A stretch of DNA of 45,485 nt, from positions 1 to 45,485 of the forward strand of contig CAMDCV010000032.1 in assembly GCA_945890645.1 (NCBI GenBank), read 5' to 3'. The notes under the pieces were generated by a model. The model saw nothing but the letters and a program-made list of their open reading frames with translations. It was not told the DNA's origin and ran no database searches. Shown here in pieces: positions 3,429-12,464 of the stretch; the first letter of the stretch is position 1; the number at the start of each line of letters is the position of its first letter. Both the position numbers and the translations under genes were made by a program. This DNA is from Akkermansia muciniphila (lineage in GTDB: Bacteria; Verrucomicrobiota; Verrucomicrobiia; Verrucomicrobiales; Akkermansiaceae).

Positions 3429-4556
3429 GTGCCCTTCACCCTGCTCCAAACTGATACCGAATCCAAAGCACGTTTGGGGCGTCTTGAGTTGCCACATGGC
3501 ACGGTGGATACGCCAATTTTCATGCCAGTGGGTACGCAGGGGTCGGTGAAAACCTTACACCCTGACGACCTCGATGCACTCGGCGCGCAGATCATTTTGG
3601 GTAATACCTACCACCTCTGGTTGCGACCGGGCCATGAGTTGATCAAGGACATGGGCGGACTTCATGCGTTTGCTTCGTGGGACAAACCCATACTCACCGA
3701 CTCCGGAGGCTTCCAAGTCTGGTCCTTGGCGAAATTGCGCAAAATCAGTGAGGAGGGCGTGCGTTTCCAAAATCATCTCGATGGCTCCAAAATGATGCTC
3801 ACACCCGAGCTCAGCATGGAAATCCAAGCCGCGATCGGTTCCGACATCGCGATGCTATTCGACGAATGCCCGCCCTACCCATGCGATGAAAAATACGCGG
3901 CCGAGTCGCTGGCGCTCACCACCCGTTGGGCACGGCGTTGCAAGGACTGGGTCACGGCCCATGAACCGCGCTCGGGCAGCGGGCGACAACACCATTTCGG
4001 CATCGTCCAAGGCTCAATCTATGCCGACCTGCGAGCCCAGTCCGCCACCGAACTCGCAGCAATGGACTTCGATGGTTACGCGGTCGGCGGGGTTAGCGTT
4101 GGTGAACCAGAGGAGGAAATGTTTCGTGCGATCGACAATGCCGTGCCATTTCTCCCCGAAAACAAGCCGCGCTACGCGATGGGACTTGGCACGCCGCCGC
4201 AGATTTTGGAAATGATTGGACGTGGAGTAGACATGTTCGATTGCGTCATGCCCACACGCGTCGCCCGTCACGGCACGGCTTTCACACTGGATGGCCCGAT
4301 CCAAATCAAAAATCTAGCCTTCGCTCGCGACCCACGTCCGCTCTGCGAAACCTCCCACCCGCACGTCTCGCGCTTTTCCCGTTCCTATATCCGCCATTTG
4401 TTCCGGGCGGGAGAAATTCTCTCTTTACGGTTGCTTTCTTTCCATAATCTGCATTTCTATCTGCGTCTCGTGAGCGACGCGCGCCAAGCCATCGCTGACG
4501 GGACTTTCGTGTCCTTTAAGAATTCCTTCATCAAACGCTACCTCAAACAATCATGA
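3429..4556 (+). CDS. tgt: Queuine tRNA-ribosyltransferase, unusual zinc site
   Basis: Tgt exchanges guanine-34 of GUN-anticodon tRNAs for preQ1, a step of queuosine synthesis. The GTG start at 3429 gives 375 aa, the normal length. Visible are DSGGFQVWS (D91, general acid/base), FGIVQGSIY, GYAVGGVSVGE, and the nucleophile region GVDMFDCVMPTR (D271). The C-terminal zinc site is not canonical: where the family has CxCxxC before the SRAYIRHL segment, this protein has C306-E-T-S-H-P-H312, with the fourth ligand H339 (SFHNLHF) kept. Neither alternative frame restores the cysteines. The gene follows lysA by 33 bp and overlaps yajC by 4 bp (ATGA), a sign of translational coupling. Confidence 0.95.
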   Translation: MPFTLLQTDTESKARLGRLELPHGTVDTPIFMPVGTQGSVKTLHPDDLDALGAQIILGNTYHLWLRPGHELIKDMGGLHAFASWDKPILTDSGGFQVWSLAKLRKISEEGVRFQNHLDGSKMMLTPELSMEIQAAIGSDIAMLFDECPPYPCDEKYAAESLALTTRWARRCKDWVTAHEPRSGSGRQHHFGIVQGSIYADLRAQSATELAAMDFDGYAVGGVSVGEPEEEMFRAIDNAVPFLPENKPRYAMGLGTPPQILEMIGRGVDMFDCVMPTRVARHGTAFTLDGPIQIKNLAFARDPRPLCETSHPHVSRFSRSYIRHLFRAGEILSLRLLSFHNLHFYLRLVSDARQAIADGTFVSFKNSFIKRYLKQS

Positions 4557-4876
4557 TTCCGACTCTTTTCACCACTCTCGCACAAACCGGAGGTGCCGCA
4601 CCTAGCTCAGGCCCCGGCACCCAAGGCCTGATCATGATGGGTCTGATGGTTGTTATGTTTTACTTTTTGCTCATCCGCCCGCAGCAACGCCAGCGCAAAG
4701 AAATGCAAAAACGACTTGATTCCATGCAGACTGGCGACAAGGTCATCACCACCGCTGGTATTCATGGATTGGTCCACAATATTAAGGAAAAAACTGTCAT
4801 CGTCAAAATTGCCGATAGCACCATGGTCGAGTTTGATAAACCCGCCATTGCTCAGGTGATCAAAAAAGACGCCTAA
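4553..4876 (+). CDS. yajC: Sec translocon accessory subunit YajC
   Basis: YajC is a small inner-membrane protein associated with SecDF. The 107-aa product has one transmembrane segment (residues about 25-43, GLIMMGLMVVMFYFLLI), followed directly by the family signature RPQQRQRKE. A soluble KOW-like part follows, with GDKVITTAGIHG. Its start codon overlaps the tgt stop (ATGA), and secDF begins 34 bp downstream; the tgt-yajC-secD order is widely conserved. The length and motifs leave little doubt. Confidence 0.95.
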   Translation: MIPTLFTTLAQTGGAAPSSGPGTQGLIMMGLMVVMFYFLLIRPQQRQRKEMQKRLDSMQTGDKVITTAGIHGLVHNIKEKTVIVKIADSTMVEFDKPAIAQVIKKDA

Positions 4877-4910: not shown

Positions 4911-7337
4911 ATGATGCCGAACCATCTCTCGCTCGCCGTATTGCCTTCTTGGCTAGAAAATTTCACCAAGGAACCTCTCACTCTGTTTTGCTACGGTGTG
5001 CTTTTGTTGATTTTGTTCGGCTGGTATTTCGCCACGGAACATGAACGCCGCAAGCGCGATGTCGGCACTGTTTTGTTAGTCTTGGTGATGCTGCTGTGCA
5101 CGATTGCTTTGATTCCTCTCGATAAAAAACTCAAAGGGGCAATTGATATCGTCGGTGGTTCTTCGTTCACGATGCAAGTTCAGCCTCGCGAGAATGCGAA
5201 CGGTGATCCAGTGGAAGTCACTGAGGAAGACACGGAAAACGCTAAAGCCATTATTGAAAAACGCCTCACAGGTTATGGGGAAAATGAACCGATTATTTTC
5301 CGCCAAGGCGTCGATCGCTTTGTCGTTCAAATGCCGGGCGGCAAACCGGAAGATGCAGCGAAAATTCGCGACATTCTTACCAAAGCCGCAAAATTGGAAT
5401 TCCGTGAAGTTCATTCTCAATCGAGTCAATTGGCCGAACAAGTAGCGGCGGGTGAGCACATCGAACCCGGTTACAAAGTATTCCCTTACAAACAGAAAAT
5501 CAACGAAGGCACGCCCGAAGAGACGGAAATCAACACCAATATCTTGCTGAATCGTCGTCCCGCAGTGGAGGGTCATGACATCGCCCGCGCGACTCCCGAC
5601 CCCATGGGCGGCGGTCGGGTGGACATCACCCTCGACGGTGAAGGTGAAGACAAGATGATCGCACTGACGCAGCCCATGACGGAAGGTCGCGACAGAATTG
5701 CCATCGTGCTCGATGGCGTTTGCATCAGTGCTCCCGTTGTGCAGCAAGTGCCGCTTGGTAAACAATTTCAAATCACCGGTCTCAATGCGCAAGGGGAAGC
5801 CGTTTCTCTCGCGAAAAACTTGATGAACCCCATCAACAATCCGCTCAAAGTGGACGAGGAGCGCACCGTGTCACCCACGCTGGGTGCCGCTGTCGTTCAG
5901 CAAGGCATCATGTCTGGAGTTGTCGGTCTGATCGCTACCTTCCTATTCATTTTGATCTACTACCGCTTTGCAGGTCTGGTGGCACTCGTCGGCTTGGTGA
6001 TCAATACCATCATGCTGTTCGGCATCATGGCGATGTTTGGCTTCGCCTTTTCGCTTCCGGGTATCGCAGGTATTGTTCTCACCATCGGCATGGCCGTCGA
6101 TGCGAACGTCCTCATTTATGAACGTTTGCGCGAGGAAATTGCCGCGGGCAAGTCGGTGAAAAACGCTCTGGCACTCGCTTACGAAAAAGCCTTCACGGCG
6201 ATTTTTGACTCAAACTTCACCTCCTTGATTACTGCTGTCCTCCTGTTCTGGCGCGCAAGTGGCACCGTCAAAGGTTTCGCGATCACTCTCACGATCGGCA
6301 TTGTCGCCTCGCTGTTCTCTTCGATTCTGGTGACTCGCGTCCTGTTCCGCTGGTGCGTCGATAACAACTTGATCAAGACCTTCAAATTCGCCAACATTAT
6401 CAAATCCACAAACTTTGATTTCCTCGGAAAAAGAGGTATGGCAGCGGTGTTATCATTTATACTAGTCATCGCTTCGCTAGGCATTTTCGCAGTCAAAAAA
6501 GACAATGCCATGGGCATCGATTTCACCGGCGGCACAATCATCACTTACAACATTGGTGAAGCCCAAGCCCTACCATTTACCGATGTAGACAAAGTCATCA
6601 AAGGCATGACCTTGCAAAAATCGGCGGTGCCTCTCGAGGAAAACAACTTAGTCACGGGTCGATTGCTCACCGTGCGCTGCGATAACAAAGACGCTCCGCT
6701 GATCGAGCAAACACTCGCCGATGCATTCCCGGAAATCGCCAGCCTCGATCTCAAACCCAGCCGCGAAGAAGTTTCCGCCGTGCTTGGCAATGAATTCCTG
6801 CGCGACTCCTCTATCGCCTTGTTAATGGGTATGGGATTGATTTTCCTCTACGTTAGTTTGCGCTATCGCCTCTCCTTCGCGGTCGGCGCCATCATCGCTC
6901 TCTTCCACGATGTGATCATCAGTTGCGGACTCGTAGTGATCATGGGCAATCAATTGTCGCTCATTCACATTGCCGCCATTCTGACCATCGCGGGTTACTC
7001 GATCAATGACACCGTCATTATTTTCGACAGGATTCGTGAAACCTTGCGCTACAGCACTGGCAGCTTGAAAGACATCATGAACGAGGCCATCAATGCGACA
7101 TTATCGCGAACCGTCCTCACCTCGGGTGCCACACTGTTCTCAGTGGGTGCTCTTTACCTCTTCGGTGGTCAGTCGATGCGCGACTTCTCGCTGATGATTC
7201 TCATCGGTATTGTAGTCGGCACCTACTCCTCGATCTTCGTCGCCTCCGCGCTCGTATTGTGGTGGGCTAAGATCACCCGCGCCGATTACCGCGAGGTCGA
7301 AGAAAGCAAAGCCGAGAAAGTCGAAGTCGTCGGCTGA
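4911..7337 (+). CDS. secDF: Protein translocase subunit SecDF (fused)
   Basis: An 808-aa fusion of SecD (about residues 1-480) and SecF (about 490-808), which uses the proton gradient to pull exported proteins through SecYEG. The SecD part shows a first membrane helix, the periplasmic P1 domain (MPGGKPEDA, an FREV-like strand) and the membrane block GIAGIVLTIGMAVDANVLIYERLREE. The SecF part starts around NFDFLGKR, with MGIDFTGGT and the matching block AGYSINDTVIIFDRIRE. About twelve membrane helices are expected. Fusions occur in several phyla, including Bacillus; many other bacteria carry two genes. It is the last gene of the operon and ends 16 bp before a strong hairpin. ATG 4914 is an alternative start. 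Confidence 0.95.
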   Translation: MMPNHLSLAVLPSWLENFTKEPLTLFCYGVLLLILFGWYFATEHERRKRDVGTVLLVLVMLLCTIALIPLDKKLKGAIDIVGGSSFTMQVQPRENANGDPVEVTEEDTENAKAIIEKRLTGYGENEPIIFRQGVDRFVVQMPGGKPEDAAKIRDILTKAAKLEFREVHSQSSQLAEQVAAGEHIEPGYKVFPYKQKINEGTPEETEINTNILLNRRPAVEGHDIARATPDPMGGGRVDITLDGEGEDKMIALTQPMTEGRDRIAIVLDGVCISAPVVQQVPLGKQFQITGLNAQGEAVSLAKNLMNPINNPLKVDEERTVSPTLGAAVVQQGIMSGVVGLIATFLFILIYYRFAGLVALVGLVINTIMLFGIMAMFGFAFSLPGIAGIVLTIGMAVDANVLIYERLREEIAAGKSVKNALALAYEKAFTAIFDSNFTSLITAVLLFWRASGTVKGFAITLTIGIVASLFSSILVTRVLFRWCVDNNLIKTFKFANIIKSTNFDFLGKRGMAAVLSFILVIASLGIFAVKKDNAMGIDFTGGTIITYNIGEAQALPFTDVDKVIKGMTLQKSAVPLEENNLVTGRLLTVRCDNKDAPLIEQTLADAFPEIASLDLKPSREEVSAVLGNEFLRDSSIALLMGMGLIFLYVSLRYRLSFAVGAIIALFHDVIISCGLVVIMGNQLSLIHIAAILTIAGYSINDTVIIFDRIRETLRYSTGSLKDIMNEAINATLSRTVLTSGATLFSVGALYLFGGQSMRDFSLMILIGIVVGTYSSIFVASALVLWWAKITRADYREVEESKAEKVEVVG

Positions 7338-8657: not shown

Positions 8658-8822
8658 TTACTTCACACCTTTTTTCGAGAGGCGGGTGCCTTTGGTAGCG
8701 CCTTGACGGGCTTTAAACTTAGGATTGCTCTTGCAAATAACATAGAGCGTACCACCGCGTTTGACCACTTGGCAATCAGCGTGGCGGCGTTTGGCGGAAT
8801 TGAGTGAGGAAAGAACTTTCAT
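8658..8822 (-). CDS. rpmJ: Large-subunit ribosomal protein bL36 (zinc-free type)
   Basis: A 54-aa protein starting [17 protein letters not shown] and containing [14 protein letters not shown], the bL36 signature. Canonical bL36 binds one zinc through three Cys and one His; this form keeps only two of the cysteines, which is the C-minus type (YkgO-like) known from zinc-limitation paralogues and from lineages that carry only this form. A basic C-terminal extension ([14 protein letters not shown]) makes it longer than the usual 37-46 aa. The frame is open further upstream, but the start at 8822 is set by homology. It is likely monocistronic, with its own terminator. Confidence 0.93.
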
Positions 8823-8942: not shown

Positions 8943-11900
8943 TCAATCATCATCGTCCTCGTCGTCAGGCGGCGGCGCGGGGTCTTCTTCCTCACCACCG
9001 TGGTTGAGAATGAAGGCAAGGTCGTCGATACCGAGGTTGGTCGCAAAACCTTCGTCACCCAGCACGTTGATGACCAATTGGGTCTTCTGATGCTGGAGGA
9101 TACGGATTTTTTCTTCAACCGTGTCGCGGGTGAGCAATCGGTAGGCGATCACCTTGTTCTTCTGGCCGATCCGGTGGGTTCGGTCGATGGCTTGGTTTTC
9201 CACGGCGGGGTTCCACCAAGGATCGTAAAGAATGACGTAGGAAGCCGAGGTAAGGTTAAGACCTGCACCACCGGCTTTGAGCGAGAGCAAGAAGACACTC
9301 GGATCTTTGGTGGTTTGGAATTTTTCAATTTCGCCTTTGCGATCCTTTGTCTGCCCCGTGAGGTAGTTGTAGGGTCGGCTTTCGCCTTCCAAACGGGCTT
9401 TGATGAGGTCGAGCATCGATACAAACTGCGAGAAGACGAGCACCTTGTGGCCTTCTTCGTGCAGTTGGTCGAGCAGATAAAACAGCGACTCCATCTTGGC
9501 GCTCTCTTCTTTGAGATACTTCGGATCGATAAGACCGGGGTGGCAGCAAATCTGACGCAGACGCATGAGTCCTTGAAGAATCGCGAAGGAGTTTTTCTTG
9601 ACTGCTTCGTCGGAATCCATGCCGAGCAGAGCTTTCTGAATGCGTTTGAGTTCGGCACGATACAGATCCAACTGCACGCCTTCCATTTTCGAGTATACTT
9701 CCTCCTCGGTCCGTGGTGGCAGGTCCTGCGCCACTTGCGATTTGGTGCGTCGAATCAAGAACGGACGAAGGCGAGCGGCGAGGCGCTGTTGGCTGCCGGG
9801 GTCTTTGCGTTTGTCGAACCGTTTTTTGAAGTACGAGCGTGAACCAAGCACACCGGGCATCGCGAAAGCCATCAGCGACCACATGTCCATCAGGCGGTTT
9901 TCGATCGGAGTACCGGTGAGGACCAATCGGTTGCCGGCATCGAGTTCACGCGCAGCTTTTGCGGCTTTCGAATCGGGATTCTTGATCTGCTGTCCTTCAT
10001 CGAGAATGACCGTGAGCCACTGGATCTTGTTGAGCAACTCGCCGCAGACCCGAAGCTGCGCGTAGTTCATGACCAACATGTCGAGCGTGTTCTGGTAATA
10101 CTCGAGATTGATGTCGTCACGGTTGCGAAGAATCTTAACGTTGAGCTCTGGTGCAAATTTGTGCGCTTCCGTAACCCACACATCGAGCACGGATTTCGGG
10201 CAAACAATGAGCACTGGTTTTTTCTTCGCATCTTTTTTGACGGCTTCATTGCGCAACCACAAGATGTAGGTGAGCGACTGGATCGTTTTACCCAAGCCCA
10301 TGTCGTCGGCAAGGATACCACCGAAATTGTTCGTCGCGAGGTAAGCGAGGAAGCGGAAACCTTCGATCTGATAGGGACGAAGGGTCGCATTGAGATTCGT
10401 CGGCAACTCGGCATCGACTTCGATGACGATGTCGTTCGCACGGTCCTTGATTTTTTTCCAAGCTTTTGGATCGAAAACATCCGCCGCTTTCGGGTCGGCG
10501 AGCTGCAGAGCGTGCATCCGGTGCGTTTCGCCGGAGAGGTCGAAGGGATCGAGGCCGAGGCGTGTAACGGCATCGCGTTGTTCCGGATCGAGTTTGATTT
10601 CCAAACGCATCCAGGAGCCGTCTTCCATGCGGACGTAGCCACCGCGCGCAGCGACGAGCTGACGGATTTGCGCTTTGCTGAGATTGACACCTTCTACATC
10701 GATCACAATGCGCAGGTCGAACCAGTCGATTTCTTGGTTCACGACCTCGAAGCGCACGGCGGCACTAACGGGATCGTTAAGAATCGTCTTGAGTCGGACA
10801 TCAATGTCCAGTTCTACCTGCGGCGGCATTTTGCGAATCCACTCGGCAAATTTTTCGGGGAAATTTTTCGTGAGACGCGTTTTAAACGAAACGAGTTTTT
10901 CATCGTATGTCAGCGACATTTCATCGAGAACTTTCGGTACGCAATGGAGGTCCTCACGAGCAAAGCGCATGAGCTGCTTGCCTTTGACGATTTGTTGTTC
11001 GACGAGTTCCCAACCTTCTTTGTTGAGGCGTTCCGTACGGCGACCTTTGGTTTCGAGAGCCGTGACATCGACAACAAGGTGCTCGGTTTCGGCAGAAGTG
11101 AGACCCGCTACCAGCTTGAGTTCCAACTTCGGTTTCAGTTCCAGATCGACCACGCGTTTCGTCAATGACTCCGGCAATGATGCGCCGATTTTGCGCAGAA
11201 ATTCCACCCCTTCCAGCGAGTCGATCACGCGTTTCGGAATGAAGTAGCGTGGCATGATTTCCGTCTCGTTCAGCCAGCGCGGCGGACCAGGGAAAACGGT
11301 TTCGTCGGATTGATAGAGTTCCACACGACCCGGCAACAAACGCACCGAGTGAGAAACATTTTCGCCCGATACCGTCACCAATTGCAGTGCAAAATTAGAG
11401 CCATCGTACGGATCATCTTCACAGCGCCAGCTCAAAGGTTCGTTAACAACTTTGAAGTGTTTTTCATCGAGGTTGACCAAGTAGCCTTTCAGAGCCGGTT
11501 GACGGAACAGACGATTCATGAAACGGCAACTCTCTTCTTGATCGAAGTCGAACAACGCATCGCCCTCTTTCCGATAGAACGAAAGAAAATGTTCCCACAA
11601 AATTTGGCTCGAGGGATCGAGGCGCATCGCTGCTTCCATGTAGAGCGCCGCGTAGCGTTCGATGTCCGACTTTTCGCGCAGTTGCAGCCATTCGCCGCCT
11701 TTTTCGCGAAGCTCCAAGCGAGCCTCGTTGATTGTAGCAACCAAGCGCACTTCCGCTTCAAAGGGTGGTTCCGAGGGCGGGCGTTCATTGACGCGTTCGA
11801 TACGCTCATACCACGAGGCGACTTCGCGCTCCTGTTCCCACTCCGCCATTTTTTTCTGCACCGATTCGAGATCGGTGATGACGTTCATGAATTCAGGATA

Positions 11901-12464
11901 AGGAAGCTTCTTTTTGTAAAAAGCGTAGGCGATGTAGTTCCAGAATTCTAGGATGTCGCTCGGTGGCATCGGCCATAGTTCCAGCGGCTCGTAGCTCGTG
12001 ATTTCCCAGCGTGGCGAAATACGCACCATGTCGTGGTCGTGGACTTCTCCCTCAATCACATAGCGGCGATAGCGTTTCTCGATTTTCGTGACAAAATCTG
12101 CTTCTTTGTCATCGAGTTCGCGACCGAGTTTATCCTCGATCAAATCCAGCACCGGGGCATCATCAAATTCATTCGGCGATTCCGGTAGGTCCTCGCCACG
12201 GTGCATGCGCTCCATCATGGTCGCATATTGGCAAGCCCCCGAAACGATCTCGTCCTCTGCGGTGCAACTACCGAACCAACGATTGCCTTGCAGACGAAGG
12301 CTCGTGCGATGCACTCCCGTTTCCTCTTCGACACGGCCCTGAATGAACAGGTGATTGCCGAAAATTTGCGTTACAGCACCATCTTTCTGCAATAATTCGC
12401 CTTTTTTACGGGCCTCCTCAGGAAAGCTGTTGAGGAAATTTAAAGTAGCACGGTCAGGATTCAT
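8943..12464 (-). CDS. SNF2-family DNA-dependent ATPase/helicase
   Basis: A 1173-aa cytoplasmic protein. The C-terminal half is a complete SNF2 motor: ADDMGLGKTIQSLTYILW (motif I, about residue 725), VICPKSVLDVW (Ia), LDEGQQIKN (motif II, DEGQ about 823), LVLTGTPIENRLMDMWSL (III), RTKSQVAQDLPPRTEE (IV), VLVFSQFVSMLDLI, FLLSLKAGGAGLNLT (V) and QAIDRTHRIGQ (VI, about 1090). The N-terminal 600 residues are the poorly conserved region of bacterial SNF2 proteins. Residues 60-90 resemble a SWIM zinc finger, but with only C67 and C78 left of the CxC...CxH pattern. The C-terminus is very acidic (PPPDDEDDDD). These proteins remodel nucleic-acid-protein complexes, and the exact role is unknown. No neighbouring methylase or nuclease suggests a defence system. 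Confidence 0.95.
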   Translation of the reverse strand: MNPDRATLNFLNSFPEEARKKGELLQKDGAVTQIFGNHLFIQGRVEEETGVHRTSLRLQGNRWFGSCTAEDEIVSGACQYATMMERMHRGEDLPESPNEFDDAPVLDLIEDKLGRELDDKEADFVTKIEKRYRRYVIEGEVHDHDMVRISPRWEITSYEPLELWPMPPSDILEFWNYIAYAFYKKKLPYPEFMNVITDLESVQKKMAEWEQEREVASWYERIERVNERPPSEPPFEAEVRLVATINEARLELREKGGEWLQLREKSDIERYAALYMEAAMRLDPSSQILWEHFLSFYRKEGDALFDFDQEESCRFMNRLFRQPALKGYLVNLDEKHFKVVNEPLSWRCEDDPYDGSNFALQLVTVSGENVSHSVRLLPGRVELYQSDETVFPGPPRWLNETEIMPRYFIPKRVIDSLEGVEFLRKIGASLPESLTKRVVDLELKPKLELKLVAGLTSAETEHLVVDVTALETKGRRTERLNKEGWELVEQQIVKGKQLMRFAREDLHCVPKVLDEMSLTYDEKLVSFKTRLTKNFPEKFAEWIRKMPPQVELDIDVRLKTILNDPVSAAVRFEVVNQEIDWFDLRIVIDVEGVNLSKAQIRQLVAARGGYVRMEDGSWMRLEIKLDPEQRDAVTRLGLDPFDLSGETHRMHALQLADPKAADVFDPKAWKKIKDRANDIVIEVDAELPTNLNATLRPYQIEGFRFLAYLATNNFGGILADDMGLGKTIQSLTYILWLRNEAVKKDAKKKPVLIVCPKSVLDVWVTEAHKFAPELNVKILRNRDDINLEYYQNTLDMLVMNYAQLRVCGELLNKIQWLTVILDEGQQIKNPDSKAAKAARELDAGNRLVLTGTPIENRLMDMWSLMAFAMPGVLGSRSYFKKRFDKRKDPGSQQRLAARLRPFLIRRTKSQVAQDLPPRTEEEVYSKMEGVQLDLYRAELKRIQKALLGMDSDEAVKKNSFAILQGLMRLRQICCHPGLIDPKYLKEESAKMESLFYLLDQLHEEGHKVLVFSQFVSMLDLIKARLEGESRPYNYLTGQTKDRKGEIEKFQTTKDPSVFLLSLKAGGAGLNLTSASYVILYDPWWNPAVENQAIDRTHRIGQKNKVIAYRLLTRDTVEEKIRILQHQKTQLVINVLGDEGFATNLGIDDLAFILNHGGEEEDPAPPPDDEDDDD

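Follow-up and report, generated by a model that had tools for sequence, protein, structure and literature searches.

A conserved bacterial Tgt without the canonical CxCxxC zinc motif is one case of a repeated loss

The tgt locus and its altered zinc loop

The window considered here is the whole 45,485-nucleotide stretch of DNA that was analysed. Its gene of interest is tgt (3429..4556, forward strand), which begins at a GTG start codon and encodes a tRNA-guanosine(34) transglycosylase (Tgt) of 375 aa, matching both TIGR00430 and PF01702. The protein scores 491.2 bits against the TIGR00430 equivalog cut-off of 306.75, a wide margin, and PF01702 has a single match in the genome (3.8 Mb, 66 contigs, 97.55% complete), which makes this the sole Tgt found there. 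By 4 bases tgt overlaps the next gene, yajC (4553..4876, forward strand; TIGR00739, PF02699), and beyond it lies secDF (4911..7337, forward strand; Pfam SecD/SecF), a usual neighbour of tgt-yajC. The tgt-yajC-secD order is the same as in E. coli, where the genes run queA-tgt-yajC-secD-secF. Upstream of tgt in the window is a diaminopimelate decarboxylase gene (TIGR01048), and queA sits away from tgt (G000:C17), so that the window Tgt does have its pathway partner elsewhere in the genome. QueA was found in 52 of the 54 genomes searched, the window's genome among them, and queuosine synthesis is typically possible in Akkermansiaceae, probably the window's own family, according to an excerpt of a comparative genomics study (PMC11130926).

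The preliminary description of this DNA had noted a Tgt lacking CxCxxC, with C306-E-T-S-H-P-H312 in the corresponding stretch and with H339, D91, and D271 present, and translation of 3429-4556 confirms each of these elements. In canonical Tgt, zinc is held by CxCxxC together with a later His. Measured against that set, the window Tgt has none of the three cysteines and retains the fourth ligand, His339 (4443..4445; this and all codons below are on the forward strand). Homology over the whole length and the catalytic Asp pair are common to the window Tgt and the bacterial Tgts (TIGR00430/PF01702) of Zymomonas mobilis and E. coli, but the window protein has Cys306, His310, and His312 instead of CxCxxC, in a degenerate loop, P304-F316 (PLCETSHPHVSRF; 4338..4376), that has one residue fewer than canonical loops usually have. 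In the alignment, His310 (4356..4358) stands where canonical Tgts have the second zinc Cys and Val313 (4365..4367) where they have the third, and the old first Cys falls in a deletion of one residue next to T308. The His310 column holds Cys in 100% of 93 canonical rows and His in 94% of 52 rows of the f1/f6 type (f1 being our code for the window's family, and the other f codes standing for other families). From this register it follows that Cys306 (4344..4346), a candidate new ligand, lies upstream of the old ligands, and that His312 (4362..4364), likewise a candidate, adjoins one of them. Both eukaryotic subunits, QTRT1 and QTRT2, match the window Tgt in sequence; the Cys/Cys/Cys/His set that excerpts of PMC6165067 and PMC8092309 describe for eukaryotic subunits (three Cys and one His in human QTRT1 and the Entamoeba subunits) is absent from it.

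As had been claimed, no frameshift restores the cysteines: no frame on either strand within the gene gives CxCxxC, and the corresponding codon pattern, searched on both strands and in all frames, has 9 matches elsewhere in the window and none overlapping tgt. Among residues elsewhere in the protein that might compensate for the loss, positions 262 and 298 looked promising and were set aside because canonical Verrucomicrobiota already carry similar residues, which probably reflect kinship.

The catalytic residues are intact. D91, D271, and H323 are invariant in all 307 distinct Tgts compared in this work, and H323 aligns with a His that lies in the dimer helix of the Zymomonas Tgt. The roles of the Asp pair (codons 3699..3701 for Asp91 and 4239..4241 for Asp271) in the Z. 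mobilis Tgt are treated in the excerpted part of PMC4425180. Selection on the window Tgt is strongly purifying: dN/dS, computable for 18 of 19 relatives, lies at 0.02-0.10, with synonymous distances near saturation for the farther ones. Within the loop, C306, E307, H310, P311, and H312 are kept in all 20 rows formed by the window and those 19 relatives, and the synonymous codons vary. An AlphaFold2 model of the window Tgt (pLDDT 92.1, pTM 0.91) reaches pLDDT 95-96 over residues 301-320, compared with 96-97 for the CxCxxC stretch of L063, a canonical Tgt modelled as control. AlphaFold does not model metals, so all that these values establish is that confidence in the position of the loop equals that in a relative with the zinc motif. 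The best solved match to the model, 1q2r_A, superimposes with Z 52.3, rmsd 1.4, and 52% identity over 370 residues, and the model has the TIM-barrel fold of Tgt; 1p0b, named as Zymomonas mobilis, follows at Z 51.6, and we recognised no solved structure of a motif-less Tgt among the matches listed.

Distribution and history of the motif loss

A Tgt match is present in 54 of the 57 genomes of relatives searched, the window's genome included, and CxCxxC is absent from all 41 distinct Tgts examined in family f1 and from all nine named near relatives (Akkermansia, Haloferula, Rubritalea, and others). Elsewhere in the same order, the sampled f4 and f6 Tgts have lost the motif, as have the sampled f2 Tgts apart from an intact one (L145), and family f3 is mixed, with L138, L141, and L142 intact and remnants in L134 (CIHPLT) and L136 (CSHPLT). 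Within the same class, the motif is gone from 20 of the 26 loci sampled (L152-L177), and the remnants there are different, DNYTC being an example; in more distant members of the phylum, CxCxxC is kept in 13 of 13 sampled. Outside the phylum, the motif is missing from 39 of 49 Tgts in a Bacteroidota sample, from 6 of 45 in a Pseudomonadota sample (L352, L355, L358, L359, L360, and L361, mostly SSCPAS-like), and from 0 of 28 in a sample around a Ruminococcus-labelled genome. The first two of these samples consist of best matches plus chosen weaker ones and the third of best matches only, so the samples are not random and the loss rates are indicative. Overall, 170 of the 307 distinct Tgts examined are without CxCxxC and 137 have it. 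The change is not peculiar to the window's genome; motif loss recurs across bacteria. Like the window Tgt, the motif-less proteins of the sampled Bacteroidota, of f7, f9, f13, f14, and f16 (same class), and of some Pseudomonadota keep the catalytic Asp residues. Their remnants differ from the window's (DNYTC, which retains the third Cys; D or S in place of that Cys; SSCPAS), and the losses of these Bacteroidota, same-class, and Pseudomonadota groups are placed separately on the tree described below.

We note in passing several variants seen during this survey. Six f3/f4 genomes carry a second Tgt with an intact CxCxxC, 44-47% identical, and five of these genomes also encode a Tgt without the motif; the one read whole (L342:5847-7568, reverse strand; the further second-Tgt loci are L127, L129, L135, L137, L139, and L150) is 573 aa long, with a C-terminal extension of ~200 residues in which Pfam found nothing significant. 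Genus g5 (L122 and L123), whose genomes are small (assemblies of 1.5-1.6 Mb), has extra residues in Tgt, and the L123 match is split in two inside one open frame. Tgt-like matches also occur in 20 phage records.

On a FastTree tree of the 307 distinct Tgts, built with the motif columns left out, the CxCxxC state changes 11 times. Equal-weight parsimony resolves these changes as 8 losses (three in Verrucomicrobiota, three in the Bacteroidota sample, and two in the Pseudomonadota sample) and 3 returns, although 11 losses are also possible because return of a three-cysteine motif is unlikely. A first tree, of 263 Tgts, gave 8 changes, and a careful tree of 85 rows, selected from Verrucomicrobiota and outgroups, gave 5; some of its forks separating the f2, f4, and f1 losses are weak or open, so that fewer events are possible there. 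These comparisons suggest that the CxCxxC site has been dismantled repeatedly, with the remainder of the enzyme left intact.

The remaining ligand behaves differently according to whether the motif is present. Residue 339 is His in all 137 motif-bearing rows, whereas in the 170 motif-less rows H, Q, N, and I occur in 142, 25, 2, and 1, respectively; replacement in 28 of 170 versus 0 of 137 gives a Fisher p of 2e-8, a value that ignores kinship. Reconstruction on the tree yields 8 events in which His339 is replaced; every one falls on a motif-less branch, and one shares its branch with a motif loss (p 0.0013 under a null in which events fall in proportion to branch length). One event, basal to a Bacteroidota clade of 69 rows, hinges on the resolution of a tie and is followed by reversion to His in 62 of them; leaving it out (7 events) gives p 0.003. 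Since replacement is confined to motif-less branches, His339 appears, from these alignments, to be constrained by the zinc site and released when that site is lost. The 142 motif-less rows that still have His imply that the residue has another use or decays slowly, and for the same reason His339 alone is no sign of a metal. Three of the six motif-less Pseudomonadota Tgts have N or I at this position.

The metal site in the window's own branch

To describe the loop in the window's own branch, we compared 53 motif-less rows, comprising f1, f6, the named near relatives, and L041. Cys306 is present in 24 of the 53, all of which have both His312 and His339. With L041 set aside (its single loop Cys is the old third one, and it has no His312), exactly one loop Cys is found in 31 of the remaining 52 rows, at position 306 (24 rows) or 309 (7 rows) and never at both. 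His312 and His339 are both kept in all 31 rows with a loop Cys versus 4 of the 21 without one, a contrast whose Fisher value ignores kinship. L025 and L122 have lost H310 and kept C306, H312, and H339. This pattern suggests a cluster centred on the Cys, H312, and H339, with H310 as an optional member. A kinship-aware treatment of the coupling between Cys and His yields 5 independent tree pairs, on average 3.6 concordant and 0 discordant (p 0.125); with 5 pairs the test cannot reach significance, so we regard the coupling as a lead, not a demonstration. Nine of the 53 rows are of an Akkermansia type (eight from genus g3 plus L039, Akkermansia sp.), having Q339 and no loop Cys, and eight of these nine keep H310-P311. 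Outside this branch, 7 motif-less rows combine a loop Cys with Q339, so that a loop Cys there is not very informative.

The explanation that we place ahead of others, at a little short of an even chance, is that the window encodes a working Tgt in which dismantling of the zinc site was followed, in the window's branch, by reworking into a one-Cys/His cluster. Under this explanation, the enzyme would exchange guanine-34 of tRNA for preQ1, ahead of QueA. The CxCxxC site was dismantled in an ancestor of the window's family, as comparison shows, and the zinc subdomain is predicted still to fold. Cys306 (or Cys309 in a sister clade), His312, His339, and probably His310 would then form a small cluster of Cys and His, most likely with a metal ion still bound, and in the Akkermansia type and some other branches the cluster too would be gone and the enzyme presumably metal-free. 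The narrower proposition that the zinc site was rebuilt as a metal site of one Cys, at 306 or 309, plus His, and was discarded by Akkermansia-type relatives, is plausible but tentative; four rows that have both His312 and His339 but no Cys count against such a cluster.

Almost as likely as the reworked site is a fully metal-free, active Tgt, in which C306 and H312 would be ordinary residues of the lineage and ordinary packing would replace the zinc core, with Val313 in place of the third Cys, His310-Pro311 in place of the second, and His339 engaged in hydrogen bonding. It is a reading that we hold with less than even confidence for the window and prefer for the Akkermansia-type rows, which have Q339 and a loop without Cys. 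In sister branches C306, H312, or H339 has been lost and the gene retained; the extent of motif loss in the Bacteroidota sample (39 of 49 rows) argues in the same direction; the persistence of H310-P311 in 8 of 9 Q339 rows implies that this pair is useful without a metal; and the restriction of H339 replacement to motif-less rows implies that the site is dispensable there. What simple drift would not lead one to expect is the mutual exclusivity of Cys306 and Cys309 and the retention of H312 and H339 in every one of the 31 rows that have a loop Cys. The preliminary description had offered an altered Cys/His zinc site and a Tgt free of zinc as alternatives for this one protein; it had the right pair, and the survey lends evidence to each, in different branches. 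A decaying or repurposed gene, whether a non-functional Tgt or one catalysing another reaction, is very improbable. Replacing the zinc ligands of E. coli Tgt reportedly damages the enzyme, and these are the ligands lost here, but decay is opposed by the low dN/dS, the invariant catalytic residues, the single copy, the retained QueA, and the top Tgt equivalog score. An artefact of sequencing or assembly can be dismissed with near certainty: beyond the lack of any frame restoring the motif, the motif-less state occurs in 9 other same-genus genomes (88-97% identity) with synonymous codon differences, two of them with a protein 97% identical to the window's. The alignment of relatives that had been proposed as the means of exposing such an error found CxCxxC in none of the close relatives examined, and a state common to 41 of 41 f1 sequences and 9 of 9 named near relatives excludes both chance and error.

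A further possibility is genome-wide zinc sparing, in which several proteins of the lineage, including Tgt and ribosomal protein bL36, would have lost their zinc sites jointly; we consider it improbable. The zinc-free bL36 reported earlier is indeed present (8700-8822, reverse strand), being of the C- form and the only copy in the genome, and the same form occurs in 12 of 14 f1 loci (the other two, L293 and L302, are unread). The link to Tgt that this might imply fails. In a survey of 30 loci (14 from f1 and 16 from f2, f3, f4, and f6, a subset of the matches), all 16 bL36 genes read from the four other families are of the zinc type, and 12 of those same-order genomes have a degraded Tgt, so that Tgt erosion occurs without the bL36 switch and the two changes are not tied. 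One f2 genome with a degraded Tgt (G043) has a longer bL36 match, in this respect resembling the C- form. C- ribosomal proteins such as bL36 do resemble the window Tgt in being zinc proteins whose ligands are replaced in a protein still in use; unlike those variants, the window Tgt has no zinc-type copy found beside it in the genome, and the loss of its motif is not tied to the bL36 switch. The SNF2-type helicase of the same region (1173 aa; 8943-12464, reverse strand; Pfam SNF2 and helicase C domains), for which a degenerate SWIM finger had been proposed, gave no SWIM domain by Pfam at E up to 10, a search that a degenerate finger may escape.

A textbook feature lost repeatedly

The zinc site is presented as one of two hallmarks of Tgt enzymes in the excerpted text of PMC6165067, and its residues are termed "highly conserved" in that of PMC4425180. 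The window Tgt is a real, conserved variant, not unique to its genome, and one case of the repeated loss of this textbook feature; in a search of open-access literature that combined Tgt or queuosine with the motif or with zinc (subscription journals lying mostly outside its scope), no such losses appeared in the titles or abstract openings of the papers listed. Taken together, the comparisons indicate that conserved Tgts occurring in nature can dispense with the canonical zinc site. The role of zinc in Tgt (in folding, dimer formation, and tRNA binding) becomes testable with natural variants of graded loss in place of damaging mutants, and annotation or inhibitor work that assumes the zinc subdomain would not carry over to many bacteria. 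If the proposed rebuilding of the site is correct, the window's family would hold both rebuilt and empty versions of it, and the canonical zinc version would be found in other families of the same order.
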